64,000 nucleotides of DNA from Limnephilus marmoratus (lineage: Eukaryota > Arthropoda > Insecta > Trichoptera > Limnephilidae), in NCBI GenBank assembly GCA_917880885.1, contig OU862919.1, forward strand, positions 10,558,001 through 10,622,000, read 5' to 3'. Below, piece after piece: positions 1 to 63,056 of the stretch. The notes beneath the pieces were generated by a model. That model ran no database searches, was not told the DNA's origin, and saw only the letters and a list, made by a program, of their open reading frames with translations. Each line of letters starts with the position of its first letter. Position 1 is the first letter of the stretch. The position numbers and the translations under genes were made by a program.

Positions 1-1
1 A

Positions 2-3000
2 TGGAAGAAGAAGTGTGTGTCATTTTCTCATGCTCTGATAGCTGCTGTACGACCCCGATTTTTTGTTTCCTCCCTTCTGATTGGAATTGGTACCTACTTT
101 TACCGAAAATATGGATCCAAACATCTGGTAAATATGTGCGCTGCGCTGGGGTTCTCCTGTTCTTATTCAGCAGCTGTGCAGCTTGAAACTTCAGCGATTT
201 TACGAGATGAATCCTCACCACCAATAGGAAAAGAAGCTTTTATCCAATTTGTCTATGACAATGCGGACGTGAACGTTAACACGCTGGATGGTGATAACAC
301 GTTTCATGAGATGGGAGGCATTATGTGCGTGACCCCCTCGAGAGCAGTAATGCGAGACAAAAACATCCCACGTATACAGAACTATGTTACTGCTCAAAAT
401 GTGACCTCCAGCAGTGAAATAGAAATCAAAGAGTGCTTTGTTAAAAAAAACAGTGGATTGGCAGCTATCATGGTTGAGGATTTGCAAGGAACCTATGAAA
501 TTGATGGTGAAATTTTGCCCTCGGCTCCTGACCTAATATGGCTGTATGGGAAGTCGCTCAATAAACAATCGATGCCAGGGTGGAATGGATTTATGGAGCA
601 AGCCACAGACGGGCTTCAGTTTTCACGCTCAAAAATCCTTTTCCTTCCATTCATCCGTGCCCCTCCCACTGATTACAATACGGTGTTCACTTCACTCATG
701 GAAGCCAGCAACCGGAGCAAAGCTCATGGCCAGAAAATCACATTCGTCACTTTCGACCAGCCATTATTCACAAAAGCAAGAGATATTGTCGAGAGTGGAC
801 TTCACTCGGAGTTGAACAGTGTAGTTGTACGGCTTGGTGGATTTCACCTCTTACTGTCCTTTATGGGATGCATTGGCACAATAATGGGTGGGAGCGGTCT
901 GAAAGAGCTACTAACCACCATCTACGCAGGCCACAGTGTTGACAAAATTTTGAATGGGCACGCATATTCACGAGCTGTTCGAGCCCACATTTTGGCAAAC
1001 CTCACACTGGCCAGCATTGTTTTTTATGAGGTTGACATAACTCCAGAGGAGCGAGACGAGACTGAAAAATTGCTGAGAGATACTGAAAGGTCTCTCACTA
1101 TATCAGCGGAAGAAATTGATACCTACCAAATACTAAAGGCAAAATTTAAAAGTACCTTGGAGAAAATTGAAGCAAATGGTCCAACATCACAGTTGTGGGT
1201 CCAATACTTTCGTATGACCACTTTGATAAAACTATTCATCCAGGCAGAGCGTGCTGGTGATTGGAACCTTCATTTGTACACTGTCCACAAGATGCTCCCT
1301 TTTTTCCACGCAGCTGGACATTTTTTGTATGCTAAGAGTGCGCACCTCTACCTTCAGGATATGATGGCTCTACAAGATCGGATGGATAAAAGTGAATATG
1401 ACATGTTCACAAAAGGATCCTTCACCATTCGCCGGTCTGACAAGTTTTGGTCTGGGTTGTGGTCAGATCTAACAATTGAGCAGAAGCTGATGCGATCCAT
1501 GAAAACCTACGGTGGGTTGACCCAAGGAAGGGGAATCTCCGACAGTGTTCTGGCAAGGTGGACAACAGGAATGGTGTTTATGTTGAACATTTGTGAAGAA
1601 CTGGAAAGTTTTTGCAGCATCTCATGTCCTACTGGAGAACAGCATGTAGACATGAGACCTTCTAGAATCATCCGAGATAATAGTGATGTGGAAAAACTAA
1701 AAAACTGGTTTGCTCTCCACCCTCCATTTCCCAAAACTAACAGTTTGATTTCTATCAGTAGTGGTTTACTGGCAGGTCCTGAAATTAATTGCCACACAGC
1801 CCAGAGAGTTGGAACGGAGGGAGCGATGAAGATTGTGGGGCAAATGTACGACAAGGTAGTAGTAAAGCGAAAAAATAAAGTTACCACGCTAGCATCGATC
1901 ACCTCAACCGTTAAACTGCCGGACAAAAACAGAAGAGTGGCTGTGGATCCGCTCACAATTTTCCAGCGAGTGTGTATTACAAAGCAATCCGAACAGGATT
2001 TACAGGATGACTTCAAGTATGAGTTGGCCCCGTTCCCGATGTCTCTGTTCAATGAACAAGGGATGCGCAAGGGCACAAAATCTTCTCTGTACTCTGCCTT
2101 CACTCCTCTTTCCAGCCACACGCCGATAGATGCCAGCACTCACGTCATTTTGGATGGTGGCTACCTCTTGCACAAGGTCGTGTGGCAGCGGAAGAGTACG
2201 GTTCGAGCACTTTTGACGCGTTATACTACCTACGTCCGAAACCACTTTGGGAAGAACGTCTCCATCGTTTTTGACGGCTACCCCGAAGATGCTACCAAAA
2301 AAAACACCAAAACAGCGGAAAGACTCCGGCGCTACGCAGCTCATTCCAGCTACGAATTGACGTTCGATGAATCCACAGTAATTCAAATTGCTCAAGAGCA
2401 TGTATTGGGCAATGAGAATAATAAGAGACGCCTTATAACTCTTCTCTGTGATACCTTTCAGAAGGATGGAGTAGAAGTGGCTGTTGCCGAAGAAGATGCG
2501 GATCGAGAGATCGTCATGATGGCGTTTTCAAAAAGAGCAGTAGCCGATCGGGTCGTCATAGTGGGAGAAGACGTCGACCTGCTCGTTCTTCTCAATAGTT
2601 TAGGTGCTGAAGAGACAAACGTCTATCTTCAGAAGAGTACCAAGGGTGAAGCTGGTTGCTGTCACTACTCTACGACCTCCTACAATCACCAGGGCTCCCG
2701 GCGATTACCAGGAATGGTACTATTCACCCACGCGTTTACCGGGTGCGATACCACCTCAGCACTTTTGGCCAAGGAAAGACCAAAATCACCACACTTCTGA
2801 GCAAGAGTGAACCACTTGCTGAGCAAGTGGAGATCTTCCTTCGGCCAGACTCCACCCCACAAGCCATAAGTGAAGCAGGCATAAAGTGCTTTGTGGCTCT
2901 ATATGGGGGTGACATCGCGAGGGATACTTTGGATTTACTGAGGTATAAGACGTTTGTCACTTCAACAAGCATAAACCTCGCCCGGTTGCCACCGACGGAA

Positions 3001-3412
3001 GATGCCGCAGGCCACCATGCAGCAAGGTGCTACCTCCAAGTACAGAAGTGGCGAGGAATCAACTTGAATCCCACTGAATGGGGGTGGAAGCTGTCTTCTC
3101 AAGGACTCACCCCCATCCCCACCATGATGGATCCCGCACCTCCTGCCCTTCTGCGAAAAATTTCATGTAAATGCAAGAAAGGATGCTCTGGGAGCTGCTC
3201 GTGCAGAAAGGCTGGGCTCCACTGCTCAGTCCCTGTCAGTCATGCGGTGGAAAATTATGCAATAACGTCCCGGATGTGGAGCTGAAATGCTCGGACGATG
3301 AAGATGACCCAACTACAGACTGGGCGCCTCTCCCAGCGTCCATCACAGATATCGAGACACCTTATTCGTGCGAGCCTAAGCCCGGGCCATCTAAGATAAA
3401 AAGAAAGACATG
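2..3412 (+). pseudogene. PIN/XPG-like nuclease plus CXC-domain protein, two frameshifts
   Basis: The reading frame is open at the window edge, so the true start is upstream. Residue numbers are counted from position 17. The N-terminal third holds a family-like block, TLDGDNTFHEMGG, near residue 89. A FEN1/XPG-type PIN nuclease domain lies at about 705-915: VILDGG strand near 709, IVFDGY near 752, acidic EEDADREI near 827, VGEDVD near 848, GCDTTSA near 908. These match the acidic metal-binding positions of that fold. A one-base slip in a T run near 2766 ends the first frame; homology resumes immediately in the next frame and runs to a Tesmin/TSO1-like CXC cluster at 3165-3270 (CKCKKGC, CSCRKAGLHC). 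A second slip near 3228 moves the rest (CQSCGG, then an acidic tail) to another frame, ending at 3412. PIN domains cleave nucleic acid and CXC domains bind DNA. The role in transposition is inferred. Confidence 0.7.
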
Positions 3413-3640
3413 ATTTGGCAACCAAGACACAATACCTACATGATTTATATTAGTTTTATTTTTTGTGTACATATAACTTGTCCTCACAGTAGGTACCATG
3501 ATGTCTGTACAAGCATTTTAGTATGTAGGTATATAAAACAATCTTTGAAGATGACGTAATTCCCGATAGATGTATTATCTTTTCTTTTTTTCATCAAAAA
3601 TGTGTTAACAATAACAAAAAAAAATTGTAACTCTTTGATA

Positions 3641-3646
3641 AATAAA
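3641..3646 (+). promoter_or_regulatory. poly(A) signal of PIN-CXC copy 1
   Basis: AATAAA lies 229 bp after the last stop codon of the PIN-CXC coding region, in AT-rich sequence. It is the first good poly(A) signal downstream and suggests the element once had its own transcript end. Confidence 0.4.
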
Positions 3647-4375
3647 ACCATAAAAAGACGTGAGAACAGTTTATTTGCATTTCCCCCCAAAACCCGCCTA
3701 TGACTATTTTTGGTTATCTGGCGTTCTTGAGAGAACCGTTAGGTCTACAGATATCATTCTAGCTTTAAATGAAAGCTAATTAAATTTACTACAATTTTAT
3801 TTCATATAATATTTGACGTGGGATACGTGTTTTAGAAAATATTTTACAAAATAAGTGACCATTTCGAAAAAATTTCACTTTTTGGAAAAAATGACCTATT
3901 TTCAAAGAACTGTATCTTGAAAACCAATGGCTTTATATAGCTTGCTTTCATCTCAAATTGTAGCAAATTTAGTCTTAAAGGTATGTATACTAACTATACC
4001 GGTCAGACCCTTCCTTCACTGAGATATTGAGCAAAAACTGAAAAAAATCCGAAAATTTCTTGGTTTTTTGGATCCACTGCCGCTCGCACAGCACTTTCGA
4101 AGTTGCAAATTTTTTTTTTATTACTGGTTTAGGTCCTAACAACATATAAAAAATTCAGAATGACCGGACCTTTTGCAAGCACAACCCCCTTTTTATGTTT
4201 AACTTGACTGGACTATTTGATCTGATTTCGTTCTTGGGGATATTTTTAGTATTACCTATGTAATTTATTTATTTTAAACTTGTGATTCAAAAAATAAACG
4301 ATTCAAAATTGTGATTTTAGTCTGCGAGGATAAACGTAAGGAGCTATTTGAACCCGATTCCGTTTTTCGGGGCTA

Positions 4376-5299
4376 CGAGGGTTGTCCGTAAATTAAGGTC
4401 TCCAAGGTGCTGCGATCGCGAGGAACAATTTTACGCGCAATCCAGCAATACTGGCTTGTAGTTCGGTTTCCCCTTTACTTGTCAAATCCCCACCATGCTG
4501 CACCCTCTGCGATGCTTGGCTCGGCGTGGCAGCCTTTCGCGATGGAGCTTTCACTCGCCGCACCCGCCAGGTGCGAGTTACGCTCTGTAATTCGTTTTTA
4601 AACTTCGCTTCGGCGAATCTGAATGATGCCACTAGGATTGTTCCTTTGTCTCTGGTGTCGTGTAGTGTATCCAGGTCTTGTCCCCAGTCACAATTGAGTC
4701 CAAGAATTCTTCGCCATCGATGTCGTAGCACTCAAGGAATTCGCGGGCTACTTCAATCCGCTGTTGTTTGTGATCTTTGGTGAGTATTTTGGGACCCACC
4801 TTGGGCACACCTTGTGGTCTCCCAAATATTCTGTCAAAATCTTATCAATAGTGGTCTTACAGATATCAGGGATCATATCACAGAGTTTCCGAACCGTCAC
4901 CCGTCGATCTGCAATCATTGTTTTTTCCACTTTGGCTTTTTTTTCGTCTGAAACCGATGGTCGTCCGGTACCCATTTAAATTCTCTGCACCATTTGCGCA
5001 AGTTTTCGAACTTGTACACTGTTTTCCTTACATTTCAAGTAGCTGCGAATGAATTTCTACCGGGGTTTTGTTCTTTTCACGAAAAAATCTAATTATAGAG
5101 TGTTATTCACACCTGACGGGTGTGTCGAGTGGAAGCTCCATTGCGAACGGCTGCCACGCCGAGACTAATGTCGCAGAGAGTTCAACGTGGTGGGGATTTG
5201 GCGTAGGGGAACCAGGCTACACGCCAGTGATGCCGGACGTCGCATATTTTTTTCCTCGCGACCGCAGTATCTTAGAGACCTTATTTTAGACAGCCCTCG
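4376..5299 (-). mobile_element. Deleted mariner with ~200-bp inverted ends
   Basis: The element begins CGAGGGTTGTCCG and ends with its near reverse complement, CAGCCCTCG, flanked by TA on both sides (4374-4375 and 5300-5301), the Tc1/mariner target signature. Similarity between the two ends is not limited to about 30 bp. The left 200 bp and the inverted right 200 bp align nearly throughout, including a GGCGTGGCAGCC block. At 0.92 kb it is shorter than a usual 1.3-kb mariner, and most of the C-terminal transposase is missing. Confidence 0.85.
4600..4975 (-). pseudogene. Mariner transposase remnant
   Basis: Reading on the minus strand, 4975-4748 encodes the paired helix-turn-helix N-terminal part (GRPSVSDEKK, ADRRVTVRKLCDM, then HKVCPRWVPK, a hallmark just before the catalytic domain). 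After a jump and frame change, 4745-4600 encodes the stretch around the first catalytic aspartate (EEFLDSIVTGDKTWIHYTT), typical of mariner proteins. The sequence between these two segments and the later DDE/DDD residues are absent, so the protein cannot be active. The gene belongs wholly to the surrounding TA-flanked element. Family assignment is firm from the motifs; the exact subfamily is not determined. Confidence 0.8.
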
Positions 5300-5654
5300 T
5301 ATTTTTATGAGAACACGTCATTATGACACAATTCAAAATTTCTTTGTGAGGGCTATTTCAGGAGCTATTTTGAACTGAGTATCTTTGTTTAAGTTTTATC
5401 TTTGTGTGGTATAATGAGGAAAAATTATAACTCCGATTTTAGGAAGTTAATTTTTTAGACACCTCTTCAGTAGATCGGTTATTAGTGTCAGCGAGGGTGT
5501 AGCTATAGCATTTACTTGGAAGGGGGAGGGGGTGATCCTTTAATTATTAGAAAATGTTTTCGAACCTCTACTTACCACAACTTATTATTTATATCACATT
5601 GCAAAAGAGATGGTGCAAATTATATTGTGGTATTTTCAGTTAATTTAACACAAA
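5300..5654. other. Non-coding stretch, nothing recognised
   Basis: AT-rich sequence between the mariner and the minisatellite. No coding potential, splice signals or repeat relationship was recognised. Confidence 0.5.
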
Positions 5655-6095
5655 CTGCACATAATTTAGGCTTTGTTTTCCTGTTTTCCTATAACTGAAA
5701 CATAGCATTGCTGACACAGCTGTCTCTAATTTAGGCCTCATTTTATTTTCCCCGTATCCGAAACGTAGCATTGCTGACCCAGCTGTCTCTAATTTAGGTC
5801 TCATTTTCTTTTCCCCGTTATGTAACGTAGCATTGCTGACCCAGCTGTCTCTAATTTAGGCCTCATTTTTTCCCCCGTATCTGTAACATAACATTGCTGA
5901 CCCAGCTGTCTCTAATTTAGGCCTCATTTTTTCCCCCGTATCTGTAACATAACATTGCTGACTCAGCTGTCTTTAATTTAGGCCTCATTTTCTTTTCCCT
6001 GTATCTGTAACATAGCATGGCTGCCACAGCTGTCTCTAATTTAGGCCTCATTTTCTTTTCCCCGTATCTGCATGGCATTGCTGACTCAGCTGTCT
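5655..6095. repeat. 61-bp minisatellite, ~7 units
   Basis: A unit of about 60-63 bp is repeated head to tail: GTAGCATTGCTGACCCAGC, then TGTCTCTAATTTAGGCCTC, then a T-rich tract and CCCCGTATCTGTAAC. Unit starts lie near 5698, 5759, 5823, 5886, 5947 and 6008, with partial units at each end. Copies differ by a few substitutions and by the length of the T/C tract. Each unit contains CTAATTTAGG-CC, which resembles a splice branch/acceptor tract, in the interval just upstream of the first host exon. Confidence 0.9.
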
Positions 6096-6336
6096 TGTCT
6101 TTGCACTCAGTTGTATTTTTTTGCCCCAATGGGTTTGTTATTTTAATAAGAGAGCTTTTATTTTTTCTCCATTAACTGTTATTTTTCAAATAAAATTTCT
6201 AAGATGACGAAAGGCTAGTGAAATTATATAAAAGATTTAATTTCCACCTTATTATTACTTCTCCTGACAATGAATCCAATAAGTGCTATCATGTTACAAT
6301 AATTAAGCAAATGAATTGATTACAAACTTTTCTCAG

Positions 6337-19700: not shown

Positions 19701-22700
19701 ATTTATAATGCTAGCTAGGAAGGGGACGGCGGAAGGGGAACGGGGACGTACGGAAAGGTGATTCAGGGAGAAACAATGTAATTCTAAACAATGTAATGCC
19801 GGGAACCAGCAGTCTAAGATATTTCTAAGCGATCTAATTTTCAAACCAAAAACACTTGATTTTGCATTACTTAGTGCCAGTTGTTTTCATCAAATTTCAA
19901 AGATAATTTTCAAGTTCTGTGAAAGTTCTATTCAAGTTATGTTATTATTTCAGTGTTGCGAAACAGCTGGCCAATGATGATATAAAAACAGAATTTAAAA
20001 ATAACCTTTAGACAACTTGAAAAAAAACTTTGAAATATGACGAATTGTTCAAACAACTGACCTTTAGTAGTACATCGCTCTTATCGGTATTTTCCTTGAA
20101 CTTATATCGTTATGATTTTTTATTTACAGACTGTTACATTGAAACTGAATATCATCTTCCCAGAGTTGAGGATTGAACCATCTTTCGTGGATTTCGGCCA
20201 ATGCCCGGAGAATGAATCAGTCACTGGCGTATTTAAAGTCGAGAATTTAACAGGTAGGAAATTCTCGTAACAGACTGTTTTAAGGAAATTCAGTGAAAAA
20301 TATTTTGGCTTAAAATATTTATTCATACGAGGGCTGTCCGTAAAATAAGGTCACCAAAGTAACACTGGCGTGTAACCTGGTTCCCCCCGCCAAAACCGCA
20401 CCACGCTGTATACTCTGCGACGCGTAGTCTCGGCGTGGCAGCCGTTCGCGATTGAACTTCCACTCGCCGCACCCGCCATGCCTCCTAGCACGGTCGATCG
20501 ATAAGGATTGATACGATAACTTTCGGTAACTTCTCATCGTTCCCTATGGCAACTGCAGATCTCTAACGTACAAACAACAGTTGACGCCGAACATATTAAG
20601 AATACTACTTAGTCATTGTGAACTGTAACTTATTCGTCGGCGATCTGCAGCCATGCTGGGAATCTATCCTATCAATCCTTATCGATTGACAGGTATGAAT
20701 TTTATTTTATTTTTATATTATTTTGTTTTTCATTCAACTTATTTTTAATTTGTATTATTATACTTAACATAAAATTGGCCACTACAACACGGGTATGTGC
20801 CTAGTGTGATGGCCGAATAATAATCCATTTACTGAAATGTATAAACTTTACTGAATAAAGAACATTAAAAAAAAAAAATTACCTCCCCCCTCCATGTCGA
20901 TAAAGCAGGAATGGTTCGTGGGACACTTGTATCCAATAATATCGATGACCCATTAAAACGGAAACAAATCCTAAAACTATAAAATAAGATTTGACTACAA
21001 AAAGATTCACCAAAAGGGGCCTTTCCCAGTTTTAAATGGCAAACAGATTCCTTAAGTCGAAAAACCTGTGTGAAATTATCCAAATATTCGGATATTCAAA
21101 TATTTAAAAATTTCTAGAAAAACTGCAATCACCATTTACAATTCAATTATTGCTCCACACTTCAACTACTGCTCAAGTATCCTTTTCCTATGTAACGAAA
21201 GAGAACAAAATAAGTTACAAATTCTCCAAAACAAGGCGATGAGAATAATACTTCGACGAAATAGATTTTCAAAAATAATTAAAATGTTAAATGAACTAAA
21301 TTGGTTAACCGTGAAACAGATGCTGACCTTAAACACGATGGTATTTACCCACAAAATATTAAACAACATGTTACCAAAATACTTCTCAAATAAAATTAAA
21401 TACTATAAGGACATCCACAGACATAACACAAGGACGTGCAAGGAAATCAGACTACAAAAAAAGGCAAAGCGAATACGCAGAACAGTTTACTGTACAAAGG
21501 AATGAAGTTATATAACACGCTACCAGAAAATTTAAAGTCCACACCAATTGGAAAGTTCAAGATGTATTGTGGGAGCTGCATAAAACTAGAAAATATATAC
21601 TTAGTGAATATAAAATATTATAATTAATTAGAAATTTGTAAACTTAAATGCATAAATTATTAAATTAAAAATTATTATTATTATTATAGATGTACCCTGT
21701 TTTTTATAAACTATTTCGAAATACTTCCATTTAAAACTGACGAGATTGTTTTAATACAAGGGTTTGCATTTGAGGTAATGTAGAAAATTCAGTGAAAACT
21801 ATTGAAATTTCACAAAAACAAAATATAATATCTATATTATATCTCAACAGATTTTGACTTGTTCAAGTTATTGTTGGGCCATCGATATTTAGAACCAGCT
21901 GAAGTCCCCGGCATTGCCCAGGCTTTATGCAGAGTTTTTTTAATCAGATGTAGACAGACAGTTGTTTTGAAGGTCAATTGTACAAAATGTCGCCAATCTT
22001 GGAATAAAACTGTAGATTTGTATAAAAAAAAACCACGCCGCCCTCTGGTATCCGCCACTCGGTTGTCCGCTATAGACTCCCTTATTTACATAAATAGATA
22101 GAAAGATGAACCTTTATTTAAATTGATTGATTTATTTAGATCAAGAGATGGAGCTGACCGTGTCTATAGGACAGGATTGCACCGCAGTCTGGACCCTCGA
22201 GCCCTGCACTGTGATACTGGAGCCCATGCGATGCGGCGGAGTCAAACCGGCCACTTTCTATCTCACCTTTTTTCCAGGGTAATGTTATTGTTTTATCACA
22301 TTATCCATCTATTGATTCTGTGCAATTCTGTCGAATTTACTAGGAAAAACTAATTGAAGCTTAGAATCCTCAGTGTTATACACGGTGTCCGGAAACTCGT
22401 AGTACAAGCGGGAAACTGGTAAATCTACATCACATTCGGAGTCGATTTGTGATATAACTTTTTTGATTTGAGCTTTCGTTTTCGAGTAAATCGGGTCCGA
22501 AGTTGGAATTTTTTTGGTTAAAATGAAAAAAAAATTCACTAGGGGGTTGATTTCAGCTGTGTAATGTCTTATAAAATGCATCGAAGGGTAAACCGGGCTC
22601 AAAATATTTTTTAACCCTTTAGTTGCCGAAAAAATGGAAAAAAAAAATTAAATTCGAAATGCTCAGATTGAAAAAAATAGGTTTTTTGGATTCTCTACGT

Positions 22701-32363: not shown

Positions 32364-33127
32364 TGTATGGTATTTTCTTTTATTGAATTATAATTTTAAA
32401 AGCTAAAAAAATATCAATCGAAATAAAGGTATATAATGATGTAAAATGCATTTGCACTACTTTAATTCAATTGTATCGATATCCATCTGGTAATATTCAG
32501 TAAAAATGAATTATTATTGCACTTACGTATAAATTGTACTTAAAGACACGGATACCAATAGTAGAATTTTACAACTAACTTTTGCACATTATTTGAAAGT
32601 ACTTAAAACATAAAAGGGAATAAACACACTTCAAAAGTAAAAAAAAAGAAAACTCATCTCATCTCTCAAAACTCATCTCTGAAAAATGAAGTGGGATGCG
32701 TTCGTGTGCAAGTGGTGGAATATGAATTATAGTTAACAATAAGTATTCTTTCAATAAAACATAAATTCGGCTGGGTTAGACTTGGGTAAATATAGTACAG
32801 ATCTATTTTATTCAGATTTTTTAAAATTATCCAGATAAATACCATGTTCTCTTATATGAATGAATATTTCAATTAACAATTAAATTTTGGTAACCAGATT
32901 TTTTCGAAATAGTTACATACCCGTTGTAATAATATTCTTATCAATTTTTAATTCACAGCACTACACAAATAAATTAATATGCATGTCGATTGAAGCTCTA
33001 AAAACGAACGAAACGGCAGGCGGAAATAGGAATATTTCATTACATTAACTTTGGCGACTCACCCTTCCTCCTGGGTTTCGAGTGATCATGTATTACTTAG
33101 AATTTTTTTTATCCAACTATCTCTTGT
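32364..33127. other. Intergenic, nothing recognised
   Basis: AT-rich sequence between the host gene and the second PIN-CXC element. Confidence 0.4.
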
Positions 33128-36100
33128 AGTCCAGTAAATGAATGCTCCAAAAGGATGTGTAGAGTGCGTGAGCAGGGACCTAAGCAATTCTTTCAGGACT
33201 TGTTTAGGGTGCTTAGGGTGTGAACATACTAAAAGTCCTGACGTCTAGGTGGTGAGCTAGGGGGGGAGGGGGGGGGGAGAAGGTCCCAATTTTCAGGTTT
33301 CCGCTTTTATCTCAAAAACGGTGCGTCACAGAGGAAAATTTTCTGAGAATAAGTAAAAGCTTATAAAATTATCTACAACTTTTATTCTACACGTAATTTT
33401 CTAAATCCCAGCCATTTTTGAATTACACGCTCCAGAAATGTAGATATTTTAGAAAAAAATCATTTTACCTCAAATTTTTCATCAAACATTCCTTCATATC
33501 GTATAAAATATTCATCACACAAAGAAGTTTATTTGAAATAAGTTGTAAAGAATTTAATTCCCTTTTAGAATATATATAAACATATACAAATAAATCTCCA
33601 ACCAGTAAATATTTACAGCAATTTAAAGTTTTTTCGTAAAATGTCGTAATTTTCAGAAAAAGCTGTTTTAATCCTATTATCTACTAACCCACAGCTTTTG
33701 TTTTTTCGCCTAATAAATATGTGTGACCACACTTTAAAGCCAGTTATTAAATAAAGTAGACAAAAATCATATTACTTAAAAAAATTCAAATCGTGTTTTA
33801 TAATGATAATGATAATTATATCATGATAATTTTATATTTCGTTACATCAAGCACATAAAAATATAAACCTCATTGTTATCACTGTTCTCAATAACATAAT
33901 GTTACACTCTCATCCTCTTTGGACGTGAGGGTCTGGTAAGCGTTGTTCATCCATGGCATCTTCATCCTCAGTAGTTGATGGCTCTTGCTGAATAGGCTCT
34001 ACGTTGTCTTCATCGTCGTCCTCGGCAACACTATTGAGGCATCTCCCTTGGCAGTGGAGGCACGCTGTAGAACAGGTCAGCATTGCTTTTCGGCATCCAC
34101 ATTTGCCAATTGCACAATCCTTGGTGCAGCGGTAAAATATCATATTCAGAAGGACCTCCGATGCTGGTGGATCTTCTATTGTAATTGGCAACAGGGTCTC
34201 TCCTTCATGATTCCACCCCCATACTTCAGGGGGCAGCTCAATCGGTGCACTGGGAATGCTGTTTAGCTGCGCTCTCGGTTGGAGGGAGGAAACTGATGTC
34301 AGGCTTCATATTTGCCCACTTATTAGGTCCCACATATTAGGTCCACTGACCTTGTGAACGACTGGAAGCGGTACTCTAAGGGAGCTCTGTCTTTTTGGCG
34401 TCGCATACCATCTAAGGAAACATTTATTTCCAGCCTCTTCAACCTCGTCGCGAGTAGGGGAGGGGTTGTAAAAGAACATTGCCGCTTGCTTGATGATTTC
34501 TGACTCCAAGTACAAATTTGAGAAGCCCACCTTGCTTCTCCTGAAAGTTGCAGATGTTGTATCGCAGCCGATAAATAAATGTAATGTGTGTTCAAATCCA
34601 CGTGCAGCATCTCTTGAGTGTACAGTGTCATTGTTTCGGTTTTCCCTCGTCCAGGTTTCAGCAGCAGAATATCTTGGGTGGGAGGAGTGGAAGCAATCAA
34701 TAGGACAATGAGTTCACATCTTCACCAACGACAGTCACAGAATTGTGAGAGGATTGTTCCACAGCAGTCTTAACGACAAGGACATCGGCATCATCGGTGG
34801 CGTGAAGAGTCTGTGTCCCATTCTCCCGAAGCTTTGTCTGTAGGAGATGAAGTTAATTTTGTTGGTAGGATTGGATAAAAAAATCTCCCTGTTTAACAGG
34901 TGTTCCAAGTCAAATTGATGTCAGCTGATCTTCTCAGTCTGTATCATCGTATCTGTTCTTGTGATTTCGTACTGTTGGCTGGGTTTGAATACCCATCAAA
35001 TACCGCAGTGCGAGTCATCCAGGATAGTGTTGGTTGACGTAGGTGATGTAACGATCACAAATTGTGGCAACGGAGGCATCTTTTTGCCAAATTACTCTGT
35101 TTAGTAGAAATCCTCCGTCCACAACTATGTTCATCTGAGGCAGTAGATCAGTTTTTTAGTAGGTTCGAATAAGCTGTACAGGACAGATTTAGTGGTCTTT
35201 CGCATCCCACTTTCATTGAACAGTGCCAAGAGAAATGTGGCCAACTTATACTCAAAGAATTTAATCAAATCCTCATCTTATCGTCTGCTTAGCAGTTTGC
35301 TTGATCGTTTGCTTATCCGCTGAAACAGCAATGTTGGGTCAACTGCAACCTTTTTTGAGCTGATAGAAGACATTGGGAATTGACATTATTTCACTGGTTT
35401 GTGGGAAGGGAGGATGTGCATCAAACCACTGACCGAGTTTGGAAATGTCTGCTGTATCTCTACTTCGGTGGGCTTGTCCGAGGTCCTTGTGCTGTTCACT
35501 TGACATGAAAAAGATTCCACAAAACTCTTCAGGGGAAGTGCAGATCTCATGAGTTGCGCTCATACCAACTAACCAATTGCTGACTACATTGTACGAAACA
35601 TCTCTGGCTCCTGTTATGCCTCCTCGGCTATTGAATAATCGCATCAATGTGGTTTCAATGGTCATATCTGACCATACGTCTGACTAAAAACGATCAGAGC
35701 ATCGCATAATCGTCGTTGCGCGTCGGTGTGTCAGTAATAAGATAAAAACAGCATTTTCTGAAAATGGCGACATTTTACGAAAAAACTTTAAATTGCTGTA
35801 AATATTTACTGGTTGGAGATTTATTTGTATATGTATATATATTCTAAAAGGAAATTAAATTCTTTACAACTTCTTTCAAATAAACTTCTTTGTGTGATGA
35901 ATATTTTATACGATATGAAGGAATGTTGGATGAAAAATATGAGGTAAAATGATTTTTTTCGAAAATATCTACATTTCTGGAGCGTGTAATTCAAAAACGG
36001 CTGGGATTTAGAAAATTACGTAAAGAATAAAAGTTGTAGATAATTTTATAACCTTTTACTTTTTCTCACAAAATTTTCCTCTGTGACGCACCGTTTTTGA

Positions 36101-36271
36101 GATACAAGCGGAAACCTGAAAATTGGGACCTTCCCCCCCCCCTCCCTCCCCTAGCTCACCACCTAGACGTCAGGACTTTTAGTATGGTCACACCCTAAGT
36201 ACCCTAAACAAGTCCTGAAAGAATCGCTTAGGTCCCTGCTCACGCACTCTACACCTCCTTCCTTGACTGGA
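33128..36271 (-). mobile_element. PIN-CXC transposon, copy 2, with >500-bp inverted repeats
   Basis: Left arm 33128-33690 and right arm 35735-36271 are inverted copies along almost their whole length, including a G-rich tract (GGTGAGCTAGGGGG) answered by its C-rich inverse, and the outermost TAGTCCAGT answered by ACTGGACTA. TTG borders both ends (candidate 3-bp target duplication). Between the arms lies a decayed minus-strand gene homologous to 2-3412. The N-terminal half of that protein is absent, so this copy is internally deleted. Confidence 0.8.
33910..35700 (-). pseudogene. PIN-CXC protein, N-terminally deleted and frameshifted
   Basis: Read from 35700 down: a segment with MTIETTLMRLFNSRGGITGA and WFDAHPPFPQTSEIMSIPN matches copy 1 near residues 490-590. 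Then IVVDGGFLLNRVIW and DRYITYVNQHYPG, the PIN strand region (35130-35000), AVFDGY in another frame, DDADV and VVGEDV (34790-34715, with N replacing the following D), FIGCDTTSA (34590-34560), a conserved EEAGNKCFLRWYA, and the CXC cluster YRCTKDCAIGKCGCRKAML at 34140-34080 with an acidic tail. Several frame changes and a lost aspartate make activity unlikely. It shows that PIN and CXC order is a family trait. The protein's N-terminal ~480 residues in copy 1 have no counterpart here. Confidence 0.75.
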
Positions 36272-36273
36272 CT

Positions 36274-36958
36274 ATTGGGCCTTTAACCAGCCAGCGGCCG
36301 AGAATCCCAATTCCGTCGAAAGATGTTCCTACTATTATATTTCTGTTATAACTCAATATCGATTTTATTTCATTAAAAATTTGCTTTACCTTTAATATTA
36401 CCTACATCCAAAAATGCTGAAAGGCGTGATGAAAAAATAATTCAAATTTACTTCATTTTGTAATTGTTTTTATTTTAACATAATAGTATTTATAAATTTT
36501 CAATAATGACTAAGCAAAAAAAGAATGTAAAAAAACTTAATTTTATTAGTTTTCAAGACCGTAAATAAATAGACAAACTGAAGTATTTTCGTTACAAAAC
36601 ACGTGCACGGATCTTTTTTTAAATGATTTTATTTAAACTAAAATAAAAATTCTGAAACATAGCTTTCCCAGATAATTTATTGATTTATTTTACTGCATGA
36701 TTATGTGATTTGAAATATGTGTTGTATAATAAAAAAATGGTTTAAAAATTTAACAAATCTGCAAACGACCAATGGTATATAACCTTATTATACTAAAAAA
36801 TAATTTTTTTTCTCAAAATTTAAAACATGCATTTTTACTAGATATAAGAACAATCTTTCGAAATCAATTTTTAATTTTTTTGTGGAAAAGAGTCAACACG
36901 TATAAAATTTGATTTAATAATGACATGTTTCCGGTTTTCATTAATTATTACCTCTTAA
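36274..36958. mobile_element. TTAA-type MITE, copy 1
   Basis: It starts GGGCCTTTAACCAGCCAGCG directly next to the PIN-CXC right end and closes ATTACCTCTTAA. Full copies with TTAA at both ends lie at 59685-60403 and 63057-63777, and a split copy at 43973-47047. Ends TTAAGAGCGTTTAACCAG and CTGGTAATGCTCTCTTAA are inverted repeats. No coding sequence. Confidence 0.75.
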
Positions 36959-40430: not shown

Positions 40431-40801
40431 TTACTAATAAAGTTAAAAATAAAAATATTTTTTTTAATAAAGTTTTTAGTAAATCCCGATAAAATAATCA
40501 TTGTTTACGAAACATGTTGATTTTTTAAGCAAGTCGTTAAAACTGAGTATTTTATTAATTTTGAATTAAAATGGTGTCTCAAAACAAGGTTGCTGTGTTT
40601 CTAGAAAGAATTATTAATAATTATTAAAATAAAATAATTTTGGTAACTACTTTATCGCTCATCTTATATCTTCTTATCTTATATATATATTAATTTTTCG
40701 AAGAAAACTTCTTCTAACAGGTTGTTACTTTGTGATGTCATTATTTATTTATTAAAAGAAAATAACTTAGTTTACATCACTTTATTTTTTATATTTTATA
40801 G

Positions 40802-40858
40802 GTACTATCAACATGTTTCGTGAACCATGTTCACTTCTTCAGGAATAAAAGTATACTA
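40802..40858 (-). ncRNA. Hammerhead-like motif B, left arm
   Basis: Minus strand: CTGAAGA, extra A, GTGAAC-ATG-GTTCAC, GAAA, CATGTT, GAT. Identical core to 42550-42576. Confidence 0.45.
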
Positions 40859-40962
40859 AAGTTAAAAAATTAATTATAGATTACATATGGAGAGAAGAAA
40901 TTGAAGGAGGGGGAAGGGTTGACAATGGTGGGAGTTTCGAAAAATTGGGGATTACCAAGCTA

Positions 40963-41592
40963 TTAGAAAGGCCGGTTAAGTGGGAAGATATTTAAAACAG
41001 GGTTAACAAAAATTTTTTGCTTATTAATTATGTCAGCTTTTGAATTTACATTTTTTCTTATTCCTAAAATTTCTAAATTATTGATTTGCGATGTTTTATA
41101 TCCTGTATGTAATATTTGAAGACCTGAATTTATGTCAAAGCTATGATCATATTTTAATAAATGGTCTGCAAACTCAGAATCGCTATTGCCATTTAGTGCT
41201 CTGAGGTGCTCTTTAACCCTAATCTCAAAGTTTCTATAAGTTCTACCTATATAAAACGAACTACAATCATTACAACTGAGTTTGTAAACCCCTGATTTTT
41301 TGGTATTAATTTCGCTATCTTTATTGTTGAGTATATATTTCTTCAATTTGTTATTTGTGTAAAACGCTGGTTGAATAGTACCGGGAATATTTATACTAAT
41401 AATTTTTGACGTATCGTTGTCGACAAATAAAATTCTACGCCAATGTTTATTGTTATCTTTAGAAATAGGGTAAATATATAATTTGAAAAAATTCTGTTTA
41501 ATTTTTTTATTTAGTATTTCATCTATCAAATTAGAAGAATAGCCATTATTAATTGCTATTTGCTTTATGAGATTTAATTCGAAATTATAGTA
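40963..41592 (-). CDS. Penelope GIY-YIG endonuclease part, left copy
   Basis: Begins near EFNLIKQIAINNGYSSN with no start of its own and runs 188+ residues to a stop. It carries KSGVYKLSCNDCSSFYIGRT with YRNFEIRVKEHLRA and HLLKYDHSFDIN: the C-x2-C knuckle, G-V-Y...Y-I-G and R...E-H of GIY-YIG nucleases in Penelope-like retroelements. The reverse transcriptase domain is absent. It differs from the right copy at a handful of positions (for example SINIPG versus SKNIPS). Truncated 5', as usual for retroelement copies; the frame is intact, suggesting recent insertion. Confidence 0.85.
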   Translation of the reverse strand, partial: YYNFELNLIKQIAINNGYSSNLIDEILNKKIKQNFFKLYIYPISKDNNKHWRRILFVDNDTSKIISINIPGTIQPAFYTNNKLKKYILNNKDSEINTKKSGVYKLSCNDCSSFYIGRTYRNFEIRVKEHLRALNGNSDSEFADHLLKYDHSFDINSGLQILHTGYKTSQINNLEILGIRKNVNSKADIINKQKIFVNPVLNIFPLNRPF

Positions 41593-41619
41593 TTATAATA
41601 TTTTAAATTAAATAAGAGT

Positions 41620-42429
41620 TTAAATTTCTTAGATTTAAATTTAACATTAACAGGTACAAAAATAGATTTCACTATTTTCCGTAAAGATACGTATACTGAT
41701 ATTGTTATACACAATTCTTCAAATCATCCCTTTTCTCAAAAACTAGCGGCTTTCCACTCTATGATTAATAGACTAATTACAATTCCTTTGTCAGCTCTTA
41801 ACTATAATTTCGAATTAAATCTCATAAAGCAAATAGCAATTAATAATGGCTATTCTTCTAATTTGATAGATGAAATACTAAATAAAAAAATTAAACAGAA
41901 TTTTTTCAAATTATATATTTACCCTATTTCTAAAGATAACAATAAACATTGGCGTAGAATTTTATTTGTCGACAACGATACGTCAAAAATTATTAGTAAA
42001 AATATTCCCAGTACTATTCAACCAGCGTTTTACACAAATAACAAATTGAAGAAATATATACTCAACAATAAAGATAGCGAAATTAATACCAAAAAATCAG
42101 GGGTTTACAAACTCAATTGTAATGATTGTAGTTCGTTTTATATAGGTAGAACTTATAGAAACTTTGAGATTAGGGTTAAAGAGCACCTCAGAGCACTAAA
42201 TGGCAATAGCGATTCTGAGTTTGCAGACCATTTATTAAAATATGATCATAGCTTTGACATAAATTCAGGTCTTCAAATATTACATGCAGGATATAAAACA
42301 TCGCAAATCAATAATTTAGAAATTTTAGAAATAAGAAAAAATGTAAATTCAAAAGCTGACATAATTAATAAGCAAAAATTTTTTGTTAACCCTGTTTTAA
42401 ATATCTTCCCACTTAACCGGCCTTTCTAA
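41620..42429 (+). CDS. Penelope GIY-YIG endonuclease part, right copy
   Basis: The open frame starts without an initiator near LNFLDLNLTLTGTKIDFTIF (41620) and continues RKDTYTDIVIHNSSNHPFSQ, a block that follows the RT palm in Penelope proteins, through NRLITIPLSALNYNFELNLI to the GIY-YIG module (SGVYKLNCNDCSSFYIGRT, RVKEHLRALNGNSDSEFADH). It ends FPLNRPF with a stop at 42429. It has about 45 more N-terminal residues than the left copy. The RT domain itself is missing. Confidence 0.85.
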   Translation, partial: LNFLDLNLTLTGTKIDFTIFRKDTYTDIVIHNSSNHPFSQKLAAFHSMINRLITIPLSALNYNFELNLIKQIAINNGYSSNLIDEILNKKIKQNFFKLYIYPISKDNNKHWRRILFVDNDTSKIISKNIPSTIQPAFYTNNKLKKYILNNKDSEINTKKSGVYKLNCNDCSSFYIGRTYRNFEIRVKEHLRALNGNSDSEFADHLLKYDHSFDINSGLQILHAGYKTSQINNLEILEIRKNVNSKADIINKQKFFVNPVLNIFPLNRPF

Positions 42430-42534
42430 TAGCTTGGTAATCCCCAATTTTTCGAAACTCCCACCATTGTCAACCCTTCCCCCTCCATCAATTTCTTCTC
42501 TCCATATGTAATCTATAATTAATTTTTTAACTTT

Positions 42535-42595
42535 AGTATACTTTTATTCCTGAAGAAGTGAACATGGTTCACGAAACATGTTGATAGTATAAAAT
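42535..42595 (+). ncRNA. Hammerhead-like motif B, right arm
   Basis: CTGAAGA (42550-42556), extra A, helix II GTGAAC/GTTCAC with loop ATG, GAAA (42573-42576), CATGTT, GAT. Helix I can pair TATACT upstream with AGTATA downstream. Confidence 0.5.
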
Positions 42596-42799
42596 ATAAA
42601 AAATAAAGTGATGTAAACTAAGTTATTTTCTTTTAATAAATTATACAACATATATTAATAAAAATGAATCGCCGAAATGTATGTACTCGCATAACTTCCG
42701 AATGACTGCACCAAATTGGATAATTCTTTTTTTGTTGTGTTCGTTATTGTCAGGACAAGGTTTGTATGAAAGAAAATTTAAAAAAATCAAACAATTTTT

Positions 42800-48860: not shown

Positions 48861-49260
48861 GTACATTACGAGGCATTGCAATAGTTATGATCGAATTATT
48901 ACATTGTAATTTTATTTCATTTTATGGTCGTATTGTAAACGAAAGATTTTGTCTTATTTTTTGTGATTAAGTACGTAAATCTTTCGATATATGGAATTAT
49001 TGATAATCCAACTGATTTGAATTTACCGGAAGTGTTACATTTCCTTAGTCCGCGAATATACACCACCCGTGTGAAGCCGAGGCGGGCATGAATAGTACAA
49101 GTCTTTCGGGAATTTCTAATAAAATAACGAAAATAAATATATGGCGGTACGAAGTTCGCCGGGTCAGCTAGTGGTTTTATACTTATCAGTTCCAATTTTG
49201 AAAATTTAAAGAACTTGGTTAATTTTAGGTGTAACGCTGTTATATTTAATTATTTGCACA

Positions 49261-50033
49261 TTAAAATTGAAATTGAAACACTTTTTAACTTTTTTCCACT
49301 TATTTATTTCACCAGTACCGGTTTTATCCTATTATGGACATCTTCAGGCTGGCAATTAACATTCTTTTAATACAGAATTTATACAAAATTAGGTAGGTAG
49401 GTACATATGTTTGGGTTATTACGTTACAACTGCTCTTTAAGGTAAATATGTCATGAATAAGAAATAATAATATTTACATTGGGAAAAATATCAAATGAAA
49501 TAATAATATAACAATGGTCACGATAGTAGAATAATCGATAATTTAATAAATTTAAATGAATTGTCCTGCATATCACGTAGGACAAACCGGAAGAGAAGAA
49601 TCAACCTGCAGAAAAGAAAATCTGATAAATGCAAGATTGTGTTCAATAGATCATAACCCCCCCCCCCTTTTTGATTTTCTTTTCTGCAGGTTGATTCTTC
49701 TCTTCCGGTTTGTCCTACGTGATATGCAGGACAATTCATTTAAATTTATTAAATTATCGATTATTCTACTATCGTGACCATTGTTATATTATTATTTCAT
49801 TTGATATTTTTCCCAATGTAAATATTATTATTTCTTATTCATGCCATATTTACCTTAAAGAGCAGTTGTAACGTAATAACCCAAACATATGTACCTACCT
49901 ACCTAATTTTGTATAAATTCTGTATTAAAAGAATGTTAATTGCCAGCCTGAAGATGTCCATAATAGGATGAAACCGGTACTGGTGAAATAAATAAGTGGA
50001 AACTAGTTAAAAAGTGTTTCAATTTCAATTTTA
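49261..50033. mobile_element. Penelope-like head-to-head pair C (near-perfect palindrome)
   Basis: Arms 49261-49622 and 49673-50033 are almost identical inverted copies, with a 50-bp spacer containing a C run. Both arms encode the same short peptide NCPAYHVGQTGREESTCRKE, the YIG-QTGR part of a GIY-YIG domain. Outward ends carry CCTGAAGATGTCCATAATAG. Confidence 0.8.
49941..49986 (+). ncRNA. Hammerhead-like motif C, right arm
   Basis: CTGAAGA (49948-49954), extra T, GTCC/GGAT stem with ATAATA loop, GAAA (49970-49973), CCGGTA, CTGG pairing with CCAG upstream. The left arm (49335-49378, minus) has GAAA changed to AAAA. Confidence 0.45.
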
Positions 50034-50335
50034 ATACAATAGAATTCCACCACGAATAACTGTACAATAAATAAACTCATATTTGCGCATCATCACCCTA
50101 AACATATAAGTTAATAATAATAATCTTTATTCCAGGATGTGGGGAGGATAGTGCAATCCCACACGTCCCATATAGTTATACATATTTATATATTTACACA
50201 TAGTAAAAATAAGAACATAAAAATAAGAACATAAAGATACGATAACGAATGAATTTAAAATGATTACTGTTTTCATTTGTTGTCATGTTAAGAACACAAC
50301 TTTAACTTGAGACAAATTGCTCACTTTTGCTGAAT

Positions 50336-51070
50336 TAAGTAGTGAAGACTTGTGAGAATTCTGGGCTAGAACTGAATATAAATAAAACAAATATTGCTCA
50401 TAAGCAAAAATAACGCATTGGATGAAAATCTTTATATCGCTGGAACAAAACTAGAAGAGGTACAGAGTATTGTATACTTGGGCTGCAATGTAAATGATAG
50501 ATGGGATCGTTCGGTTGAAATCAAATGCCGCATTGAGCAAGCTCGTGCAACCTTTATCAGCATGAAAAAATGTTCTGCAGTGAAGAGCTCAACCTTGGAT
50601 TACGAATGCGAATGGTTAGATGCTACGTGTTTTCGATATTATTTTATGGAATAGAAGCATGGACGCTTACTGAAGAAATAATTAGGCGACTTGAGGCATT
50701 CGAGATGTGGATCTACAAAAGAATACTTAAAATAAGCTGGATGGACAGGGGTAACTTACTAATGAAGATGTTATGGTTCGGATGAATAAAGAAAAGGAAG
50801 TAATTAAAACTATGAAAATCCGAAAACGTCAATATCTCGGACATGTGATGAGACATCCAGAGAAGTATGACATCCTGCATCTCATAATGCAGGGAAAGAT
50901 TGCCGGAAGACGGGGCCCTGGAAGAAGAAGAACCTCAAGGCTGAAAAACCTGAGACAGTGGTTTGGCCAGTCTACCGTAGAGATGTTCCAGGCCGCAGTA
51001 AACAAACTCCGCATAGCCAACATGATAGCCAACGTCCGTTGAACGGACAAGGCACAAGAAGAAGAAGAAA
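50336..51070 (+). mobile_element. 5'-truncated LINE
   Basis: Reads ENSGLELNINKTNIA, LEEVQSIVYLGCNVNDRWDR, IEAWTLTEEIIRRLEAFEMW and IYKRILKISWMDR across two frames, then RKRQYLGHVMRHPEKYDILH and GKIAGRRGPGRRRTSRLKNL. This is the post-RT part of an RTE/Jockey-type element. The 3' end is (GAA)n at 51056-51070. Confidence 0.8.
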
Positions 51071-55671: not shown

Positions 55672-56923
55672 TTAGCTCCGCAACCGGACTCGAAAAGAAG
55701 AAGATGGAGAGATACGAAATTACGAATGTTAGAGGAGAGCGCAAACATTTACAGCGACAAAATCGATGAGAAAATTGCGAAAATGTTTAATAAAACACGA
55801 CTCGTTTAAAATAGAGAAAAAATCTTTTAGTATCATTTAAAGAAACATTGTGATTTTTTTCACAAATATAATTTATAAGATAATAGAAAAAGACTTGTTT
55901 TTAATAATTTTTAGAGCATACTTTGCGATTTTTTTCTATCGAGGGAATTTCATATAATTTGCGTTTCGGCGCGGGTAGCATCTACATTATCTTCAAAAAT
56001 AACATATATTTTTTAAGAGCTTAAAAACTTCAAATGTTTAAGGGAGATATGTAAGAAATCGGTTGGCTACGCAGATGACCTTAACATTGTCGGAAGATCC
56101 CTACAGGCTGTAAGAGAAGTGTTTGACCCTTTGGAGACTGCGGCAAGAGAGGTGGGTTTGCAAATCAATGAAAATAAAACAAAAATCATGATGCAAACCA
56201 GAACCCCTCACCGCAGAATAAAAGACAAAGTGAAATTCAAAGACAATTATAATTTCGAAGTGGTCGAAGAGTTTACCTACCTGGGCTCCATCATAACGCA
56301 GGACAATGAAGACCCAGTAGAAGTAAGAAAGCGCATAACAGTCGCTAACAAAACTTACTTCGCGTTGCTGCCAGTGTTCAAATCCCGAAACGTCCATAGG
56401 AAAACCAAAATAACCTTATATAAAACAATTATCAGAACGGTCTTGGCCTATGGATGTGAGGCGGGAACACTGACAGCAAAGTCAGCGGAACGGCTGGACA
56501 TCTTCGAAAGAAAGGTATTTCGAAGAATCTTAGGAGCGGTGCGAGAGGGAGAGGCATGGAGAATCCGCCACAATAATGAGCTCTAGGATATTTACCAAGC
56601 TCCCAGACTCTCCACCCATTTAAGACTCCAAAGATTAAGATGGGCCGGACATGTGCACCGAATGCCAAGCACACGAGTACCGAAGAAGGTTCTGACAGGA
56701 CACCCGGGAGGTAAACGAAAGGCGGGCAGACCTAGACTGAGATGGGAGGATGATGTCAGGAAGGATGCAAGAGGATTACTCCAGGTTGCAGATTGGAAGA
56801 AGACGGCCGAGGACAGAGGGCGGTGGAGGCTTATTTTGAAGGAGGCCAAGGCTCGAAATGGGCTGTAGCGCCATTGAAGAAGATGTAAGAAATCGGTAGA
56901 AATTTGGGTTGCGGGCGCTTAAA
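55672..56923 (+). repeat. Dispersed repeat copy 2, split by a LINE
   Basis: 55672-56063 plus 56882-56923 reconstitute the 435-bp repeat at 10615-11049. The interruption is the LINE below. Confidence 0.7.
56064..56881 (+). mobile_element. 5'-truncated LINE with 14-bp target duplication
   Basis: Starts at the YADD box (GYADDLNIVGRSLQAV), then ETAAREVGLQINENKTKIMM, EFTYLGSIITQDNEDPVEVR and RTVLAYGCEAGTLTAKSAER. After a stop at 56583 it continues LRLQRLRWAGHVHRMPSTRV and GKRKAGRPRLRWEDDVRKDA. ATGTAAGAAATCGG flanks both sides (56050-56063 and 56882-56895). Confidence 0.85.
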
Positions 56924-58429: not shown

Positions 58430-59270
58430 CCCGACAATTCGTCCTGCGACAATTCATCCGGCGACAGTTCATCCTGCGACAGTTCATCCGGCCGACAGTT
58501 CATCCTGCCGACAGTTCATCCTGCCGACAGTTCATCCCGCCGACAATTCATCCGGCGACAATTCATCCTGCCTGATCATTTAGAAGATTTTTATTAAGTA
58601 AGTATGCAAAGAGGATATACGGCCGTACAACCAAAATCGATATACTTATATCTGAAGGCATCTTGAGTGGAAATCCGCTGTAAAAATATTTTACTAACAA
58701 TAATTTCAACTCTCCGAAGAAGCATGCGTGAATATCAAAATACGACATACTTATACGTGCAGTCGGCTTAGCAAAGAACGGTAAAGATTCCTACTTGCAT
58801 CTAATATAACTTTTTTTATCTGAAATTAACACCATCTTTTTAGGGTGAATTGACTGATTTAAAAAAAAAAACATAAGAGTCCCAACCGTCTCGAGCCAGT
58901 GAGCGCCAATGGCATCCCCAATTTTGGTATGGTGTGATGCTGAAGGTAGTGATGAGGGGAAGGAGATGTGGAAAACGTATCTTCCTGGCTATTCAGATCT
59001 AGTCACCAAACACGGCTAGGTTAGGTTAGGTTAGGTTAGGTTAGGTTAGGTTAGGTTAGGTTGTACGGCCGTATATCCTCTTTGCATACTTACTTGAAGA
59101 AAAAATCTTCTAAATGATCAGGCAGGATGAATTGTCGCCGGACGAATTGTCGGCAGGATGAACTGTCGGCAGATGAACTGTTGGCAGGATGAACTGTCGG
59201 CAGGATGAACTGTCGCAGGATGAACTGTCGCCGTATGAATTGTCGCAGGATGAACTGTCATGGAACCGTT
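58430..59270. mobile_element. Foldback element with minisatellite arms and a TTAGG core
   Basis: The left arm (58430-58630) has repeats of GACAGTTCATCCTGCC type, then TGATCATTTAGAAGATTTTT and GAGGATATACGGCCGTACAA. The right arm (59060-59270) is the same in inverse order. The central part holds a partial SINE (58865-59016) and a TTAGG array. Confidence 0.8.
59017..59061. repeat. (TTAGG)n array, ~9 units
   Basis: About nine perfect copies of the arthropod telomere pentamer, between the truncated end of a SINE and the right foldback arm. It is interstitial here. Confidence 0.85.
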
Positions 59271-62455: not shown

Positions 62456-63056
62456 GATTTAGTTTATTTATTCATTTAGTTGATTTTTTGAAGGTGTACA
62501 GAAGTACTGGTTAACAATATCGGCGACATCAGGACGCACAGTCCCACTCAGTAAAAACCGCTGATAGCACATCTCTAATATTTCAATGTATTTGGGTACG
62601 ATGTATCTATTCAAAATTTTAAATTATTCCGCATCACGAACCCCATCTTAAATATTCCCGTCGTAAACGTACTTCTTGTTAGGATTCCCATAATCGCATT
62701 TAACTTTAGATTAATACCCATAACAAGGCGTCAAGACGTTTAATACCTTATTAAAGTGTGTAGCTCTTAAAGGAGACACAAGTGAGAACCTAATCTAATT
62801 TAAAGTTGAGAGCTTCTGCCAGAGGTTACTTCCGGTAACAGTTACCGCCGAGCGTCGTAACATCCGGATTCATGTTTCAGATTAACTTCCTGATCTTAAA
62901 TTAGATTCAGCTTGTGCCTAAAATGTAATTTAAATAATACTTTTTCAAATTTTCTCGTTCAAGCAGAGAGACAGCTCTTTGTTTTGTTTACCTCTACTTT
63001 TTGATACTAGCGAGAAAGGGACTATAGGCGTATACATACATCCATCTAATTTATTG
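62456..63056. other. Possible small MITE, otherwise nothing
   Basis: AGACACAAGTGAGAACCTAA with TCTAATTTAA (62772-62802) and TTAAATTAGATTCAGCTTGT (62898-62918) form an imperfect inverted repeat. The rest is unrecognised. Confidence 0.35.

Follow-up and report, generated by a model that had tools for sequence, protein, structure and literature searches.

A transposon of Limnephilus marmoratus encoding a DDE-type transposase fused to a FEN1-type nuclease and a CXC cluster

A transposon family with long inverted repeats

The stretch of DNA analyzed here, referred to as the window, comprises 64,000 nucleotides of the caddisfly Limnephilus marmoratus (G000 C14:10558001-10622000, in an assembly of 1.63 Gb and 67 contigs) and opens inside a transposon, copy 1, which occupies positions 1..4215 on the forward strand and is cut by the window edge. 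Both termini of copy 1 were found, giving a whole element of 6,148 bp at G000 C14:10556068-10562215, with the left end ~1.9 kb upstream of the window, the right end at window position 4215 and the target site duplication (TSD) TTT on both sides. An original prediction, made from the window sequence, had assigned 1..4213 to a transposon-encoded protein that joins a PIN nuclease to a CXC cluster; the right limit nearly agrees with the terminus, and both the element (by 1.9 kb) and its open reading frame (ORF) pass the left window edge. Inspection of the frame at 2-2800 (+), already open at the first bases of the window and continuing to the left, locates the PIN motifs DGG, VFDGY, DADREI, GEDVD and GCDTTSA within it, and the CXC cluster lies at ~3166-3266, such that both parts of the predicted protein are real. 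Owing to frameshifts near 2765 and 3230, the two stand in different frames in copy 1. A stop codon at 3411..3413 (+) matches the end of an intact ORF in a second copy, L002, and the right terminal inverted repeat (TIR) spans 3641..4215 (+), pairs at 95% with its left counterpart, which lies upstream of the window, and ends in CTTGACTGGACTA at 4215.

A search of the host genome returned 55 matches, where 49 out of 8,702 first-look candidates were scored and copy counts are therefore lower bounds. One of these, L002, has 99% identity and an uninterrupted frame of 1,505 codons. This copy is 6,150 bp long, is 99.2% identical to copy 1 in nucleotides, carries a 1,488-aa ORF counted from the first ATG, and is bounded by ~570-bp inverted repeats (95%) whose ends, read inward, are 5' TAGCCCAGTCAAG and 3' TAGTCCAGTCAAG. 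L003 likewise reaches 99% identity with a frame shorter than that of L002, and many further shorter matches are present in the genome.

Termini and TSDs were surveyed at 34 merged genomic loci with a tolerance of 2 mismatches. Exactly one left and one right terminus were found at 20 of these loci, and identical 3-bp flanks border 17 of the 20 two-ended copies, the exceptions being L013, L011 and L025. PIF/Harbinger transposons produce 3-bp TWA target duplications; the sequences recorded here do not follow that pattern (TAA in 4/17, TTA in 1/17). At the same tolerance the left terminus occurs 441 times genome-wide and a reversed control pattern 0 times. At G000 C4:22770471-22770754, two left termini lie back to back at a distance of ~240 bp, which may represent a rearranged or nested copy.

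Empty sites were recovered for two insertions. For L004, stretches of L012 and L017 align gaplessly across the insertion junction. For L002, the paralogous empty site lies in the window itself at 50790..51002 (-), where the two L002 flanks, less one TTA, give an ungapped alignment across a junction near 50846-50848, with the right flank compared over 64 bp. A third candidate, the flanks of L039 against window 62508-62574, was rejected, as the match covers nearly the right side alone (left 6 bases). All two-ended copies except the window copy and L002 (18/20) are internally deleted to 3.1-4.0 kb, and most of these retain the left ~570-600 bp. Deletion breakpoints recur among the 18 (598/3167 in 9, 598/3643 in 2, 572/3238 in 2), which indicates that the deletion derivatives have themselves multiplied. 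Many copies, common termini, target duplications and two empty sites thus bear out the predicted transposon origin of the PIN-CXC protein, and with 359 related proteins, 55 genome matches and 441 versus 0 termini the observation is not due to chance.

Two predicted enzymes in one polypeptide

The intact protein of ~1,490 aa consists, in order, of two probably zinc-binding N-terminal CX2C...HX2C modules, a DDE transposase that contains a helical insertion of the P/hAT/RAG type, a complete nuclease of the FEN1/EXO1 family and a C-terminal CXC cluster. The DDE domain, overlooked in the original prediction, extends over 68..1618 (+), where predicted structure and conservation indicate an RNase H fold interrupted by helices between the second D and the E. 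In the window ORF its acids are D86/D89 in strand 1, D252 after strand 4 and E493 in the last helix, with D89 encoded at nt 266-268, D252 at nt 755-757 and E493 at nt 1478-1480. To measure conservation, L002 was aligned with 99 relatives of at least 1,100 aa, drawn from the best 120 of 359 protein relatives at E <= 1e-3 (21 shorter ones were excluded). In L002 numbering, D440, D603, H633, D840 and E844 are identical in 100/100 proteins and D437 in 99/100.

A structure model of window ORF residues 1-620, built from an alignment of 55 of the 120 listed relatives, has a pLDDT of 90.6. Its strands at 80-90 (with D86 and D89), 101-111 and 211-218 are followed by a helix, a strand at 247-251 leading into D252, a second helix and a strand at 274-278; a helical insertion of ~190 residues then precedes helix 488-501, which bears D489 and E493. 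We take this order to be the RNase H order of DDE recombinases. Among the top 14 entries of VIA-align, applied to Foldseek's 1,000 best chains, P element transposase scores 12.0 and 11.8, and Hermes, RAG1, ISCth4 and Transib score 7.8-5.4; unrelated entries begin at 3.9. The fold call deserves caution in two respects: P element rows alone attain a score of 8, and the tool cautions that lower scores can reflect common arrangements; Foldseek against PDB gives a best E of 0.39, with Transib at rank 5 (E 0.52). Because the best Foldseek E is just 0.39, the call rests on VIA-align, strand order and conservation together. Searching PDB sequences with the window ORF by phmmer returned nothing.

Pfam scans of four window frames (E <= 1, broken copies) and 12 relatives (E <= 0.1) yielded no useful transposase match; TIMELESS_C (E 0.0047, copy 2, under cut-off), Aim19 and other weak rows were taken as chance. 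DUF6589 appeared under cut-off in 4/12 scanned relatives, namely P0098 (E 3.9e-6, 26.3 versus 27 bits), P0028, P0100 and P0120. Precomputed Pfam matches place it on P0098, P0122 and P0147, and in P0098 it covers the transposase region. A literature search found no mention of DUF6589; this family of unknown function may itself be a transposase family.

The nuclease domain lies at 2078..3072 (+; end approximate) and is complete in relatives, with the frameshift near 2765 falling inside it in copy 1. It matches FEN1, EXO1 and XPG nucleases in the PIN-like fold, the seven metal-binding acids (first bases at nt 2153, 2273, 2495, 2501, 2570, 2576 and 2747) and the arch K/R residues; it differs in being fused to a transposase. 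Identity to these nucleases is ~10-17% in structural alignments, and the pairing of the first acid (the DGG block) with the FEN1 type falls outside the sequence alignment. Wherever one of the 100 aligned proteins covers the active site, the site is conserved. L002 apart, identity of these relatives to the window ORF ranges over 39-62%, and insect, octocoral and rust-fungus records are among them, such that the nuclease appears to have been selected along with the transposase.

The CXC cluster at 3166..3266 (+), of which the last part is out of frame in copy 1, has nine cysteines in relatives and follows the pattern C-x-C-x3-C-x3-C-x-C-x6-C-x3-C-x2-C-x4-C-x-N, presumably the canonical tesmin/TSO1 spacing. 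Of the 86-88 proteins that cover a given cysteine, 86-87 have it. Several relatives bear the name Tesmin/TSO1-like CXC in UniRef, and Pfam returned no CXC match at E <= 1 (frames of broken copies) or 0.1 (12 relatives). In the literature searched, the CXC cluster is the one feature untraced in print for such transposons.

Named relatives, a minority among those listed, are labeled uncharacterised, hypothetical or CXC-domain proteins in databases; most of the list comes from ~5 kb contigs. Hosts of the named relatives presumably comprise ants, a wasp, moths and butterflies, beetles, aphids, whitefly, thrips, stick insects, a mayfly and an octocoral, together with a rust-fungus record. Several database Tesmin/TSO1-like CXC proteins are transposase fusions rather than host regulators.

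Placement among DDE transposons and a possible division of labor

A predicted DDE-type transposase with invariant acids therefore forms the front part of the same polypeptide as PIN-CXC. The PIN nuclease, proposed originally as the main enzyme, is preceded by this transposase, and the proposal is not supported. The fallback proposal of an accessory PIN-CXC protein with its transposase encoded elsewhere comes nearly right as to the accessory role and fails as to location, given the fusion. The prediction had itself named residence in a known element with its own transposase as evidence against it, and, as to the transposase, this is what the domain at 68-1618 supplies.

We read the element as an autonomous cut-and-paste transposon of Academ type (AcademX lineage) with DDE, FEN1/EXO1 and CXC parts in one protein, to which we assign a probability of roughly 0.85, the match to Academ being one of described features. 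According to the literature, AcademX has TSDs of 3 or 4 bp and AcademH of 9 or 10 bp, both within the Academ superfamily, TSD length is seemingly related to the encoded nuclease or helicase (PMC10045372), and Academ is counted among the DDD/E superfamilies (PMC9587614). The likeness to AcademX as described covers three features: a DDE transposase, an encoded nuclease and 3-bp TSDs here versus 3-4 bp there. By the same description, AcademH shares the superfamily and differs in its helicase and its 9-10 bp TSDs; Pfam detected no helicase in four window frames or 12 relatives. An established superfamily thus appears to fit, where the original prediction could name none. The AcademX nuclease is said, in work of Kojima (2020) and of Kapitonov and Jurka (2010), to be XPG-like. 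Our literature search found no paper tying Academ to an XPG nuclease or a flap endonuclease to a DDE transposase; XPG together with a transposase came up only in an unrelated CSB-piggyBac paper, and a TSO1-like CXC together with a transposase in one unrelated plant paper.

Other superfamilies fit less completely. TSDs measure 8 bp in P elements and hAT and 5 bp in RAG/Transib. The P element superfamily shares the transposase fold and differs in TSD length, as does hAT, since the element here makes 3-bp duplications. We know of no fused flap nuclease in P, hAT or RAG/Transib. KolobokE, KolobokD and KolobokP are likewise described, in PMC9587614, as DDE transposons encoding a nuclease; theirs are lambda-exonuclease-like, DnaQ-like and of the His-Me finger type, in contrast to the FEN1-like enzyme here. 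Most likely, then, the element represents a known kind of transposon with an additional nuclease rather than new transposition chemistry. A candidate for such chemistry is removed, and what remains is a concrete subject for the question of why a second nuclease or helicase is found in several DDE transposons.

We consider it unlikely that the element belongs to a separate, unnamed DDE superfamily that gained its flap nuclease independently of AcademX. In its favor, the likeness to Academ is one of described features, P element transposase ranks first in the structural comparison, and DUF6589 is Pfam's sole repeated sub-threshold match over the transposase region of several relatives; however, the nuclease and 3-bp TSD are exactly as stated for AcademX. 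That the nuclease is a captured host enzyme, a passenger without part in transposition, seems improbable. Internally deleted, frame-broken copies have multiplied, so the frame is unnecessary in cis, yet the active site persists across the divergent relatives described above. Transposition by the PIN nuclease without DDE chemistry we judge very improbable: all seven FEN1-type acids are conserved and Pfam detects no transposase in the window frames and 12 relatives, but the same ORF holds a DDE domain whose acids are invariant and whose predicted structure is P/hAT/RAG-like, and constant 3-bp TSDs with empty sites agree with DDE strand transfer. The notion of a host gene from a large CXC/FEN1 family merely situated in repeats, to which the bare database names of the relatives (uncharacterised, hypothetical, CXC-domain) might lend themselves, has practically no probability in the face of TIRs, TSDs, hundreds of termini and internally deleted copies, and is already refuted by the empty sites.

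For the Academ-type element, computation supplied the architecture, the predicted folds of both enzymes, the active sites, the ~570-bp TIRs, the 3-bp TSDs, the empty sites and near-identical copies of a second family, and on these a working scheme may be drawn. The cysteine modules, the CXC cluster or both would bind the TIRs, and the transposase would bind these long repeats, pair the ends and cut. The DDE site would cut the transferred strand and, with a 3-bp stagger, join that strand to the target at sites with little fixed sequence. The flap-nuclease domain would most likely remove or cut the 5' strand that is not transferred, or else a 5' flap, either at the element ends or at the joints. 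We propose this role because the domain is strictly conserved and fused to the transposase. The arrangement would resemble the split between the two nucleases TnsA and TnsB of Tn7, an analogy in which the role of the nuclease here is presumed. Tn7 is bacterial, and its TnsA has a restriction-endonuclease fold. We suggest only tentatively that this is a eukaryotic two-nuclease transposase in one polypeptide, whose DDE site cuts and joins one strand and whose FEN1/EXO1-type domain either cuts the second strand or trims a 5' flap in place of the hairpin step of hAT/RAG/Transib. If true, flap endonucleases would here have a new use, in a division of labor like that of Tn7. The role is directly testable, since the genome holds intact-frame copies, including two that are almost identical.

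Sister families and neighboring features

Copy 2, at 33127..36274 (-), belongs to a diverged sister family; it is decayed and internally deleted, and is delimited by inverted repeats and TTG/TTG flanks. As predicted, it keeps the same order within long inverted repeats (~530 bp at 95%): the last part of the transposase (E helix), then PIN, then CXC. Numerous breaks interrupt its reading frames, and it lacks the protein part that would hold the first two D motifs. The inner parts of its repeat arms lie at 33151..33692 and 35722..36260, and its ends have TAGTCCAGT in common with the right end of copy 1. No usable empty site was found for copy 2, which on its right side adjoins the margin of another repeat.

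Several diverged genome copies at 43-46% identity are stop-free over the matched stretch. Two of these, L021 (C3) and L022 (L031; C1), are 99.95% identical over 5,510 bp and each contain a 1,498-aa frame, which points to recent transposition of a second family or to recent copying by another route. The ends of L031, L032 and L036 read TACTCCAGTCAAAATAGAC; flanks are TTA/TTA for L031 and GAG/GAG for L036, with no match for L032.

Beside copy 1, a short element at 4374-5301 has imperfect inverted ends of ~220 bp (77%), with a related fragment near 20325-20478; it is mariner-like by eye only. A tandem array with a ~62-bp unit follows at 5679-6128. At 40747-42641 lies a near-perfect head-to-head palindrome (789-nt arms, 99%), in which a + frame ends GIY-YIG-like (narrowly short of the Pfam cut-off, E 0.00057) and is mirrored by the other arm; such a GIY-YIG stretch also occurs in Penelope-like retroelements. 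An inverted repeat at 49260-50035 (363 nt, 99% complementary, 50-nt spacer) has the appearance of a foldback element or a miniature inverted-repeat transposable element, 56017-56586 holds a reverse transcriptase fragment (RVT_1, E 1.3e-8), and a further inverted repeat at 58433-59259 has one end built of ~15-16 bp tandem units.
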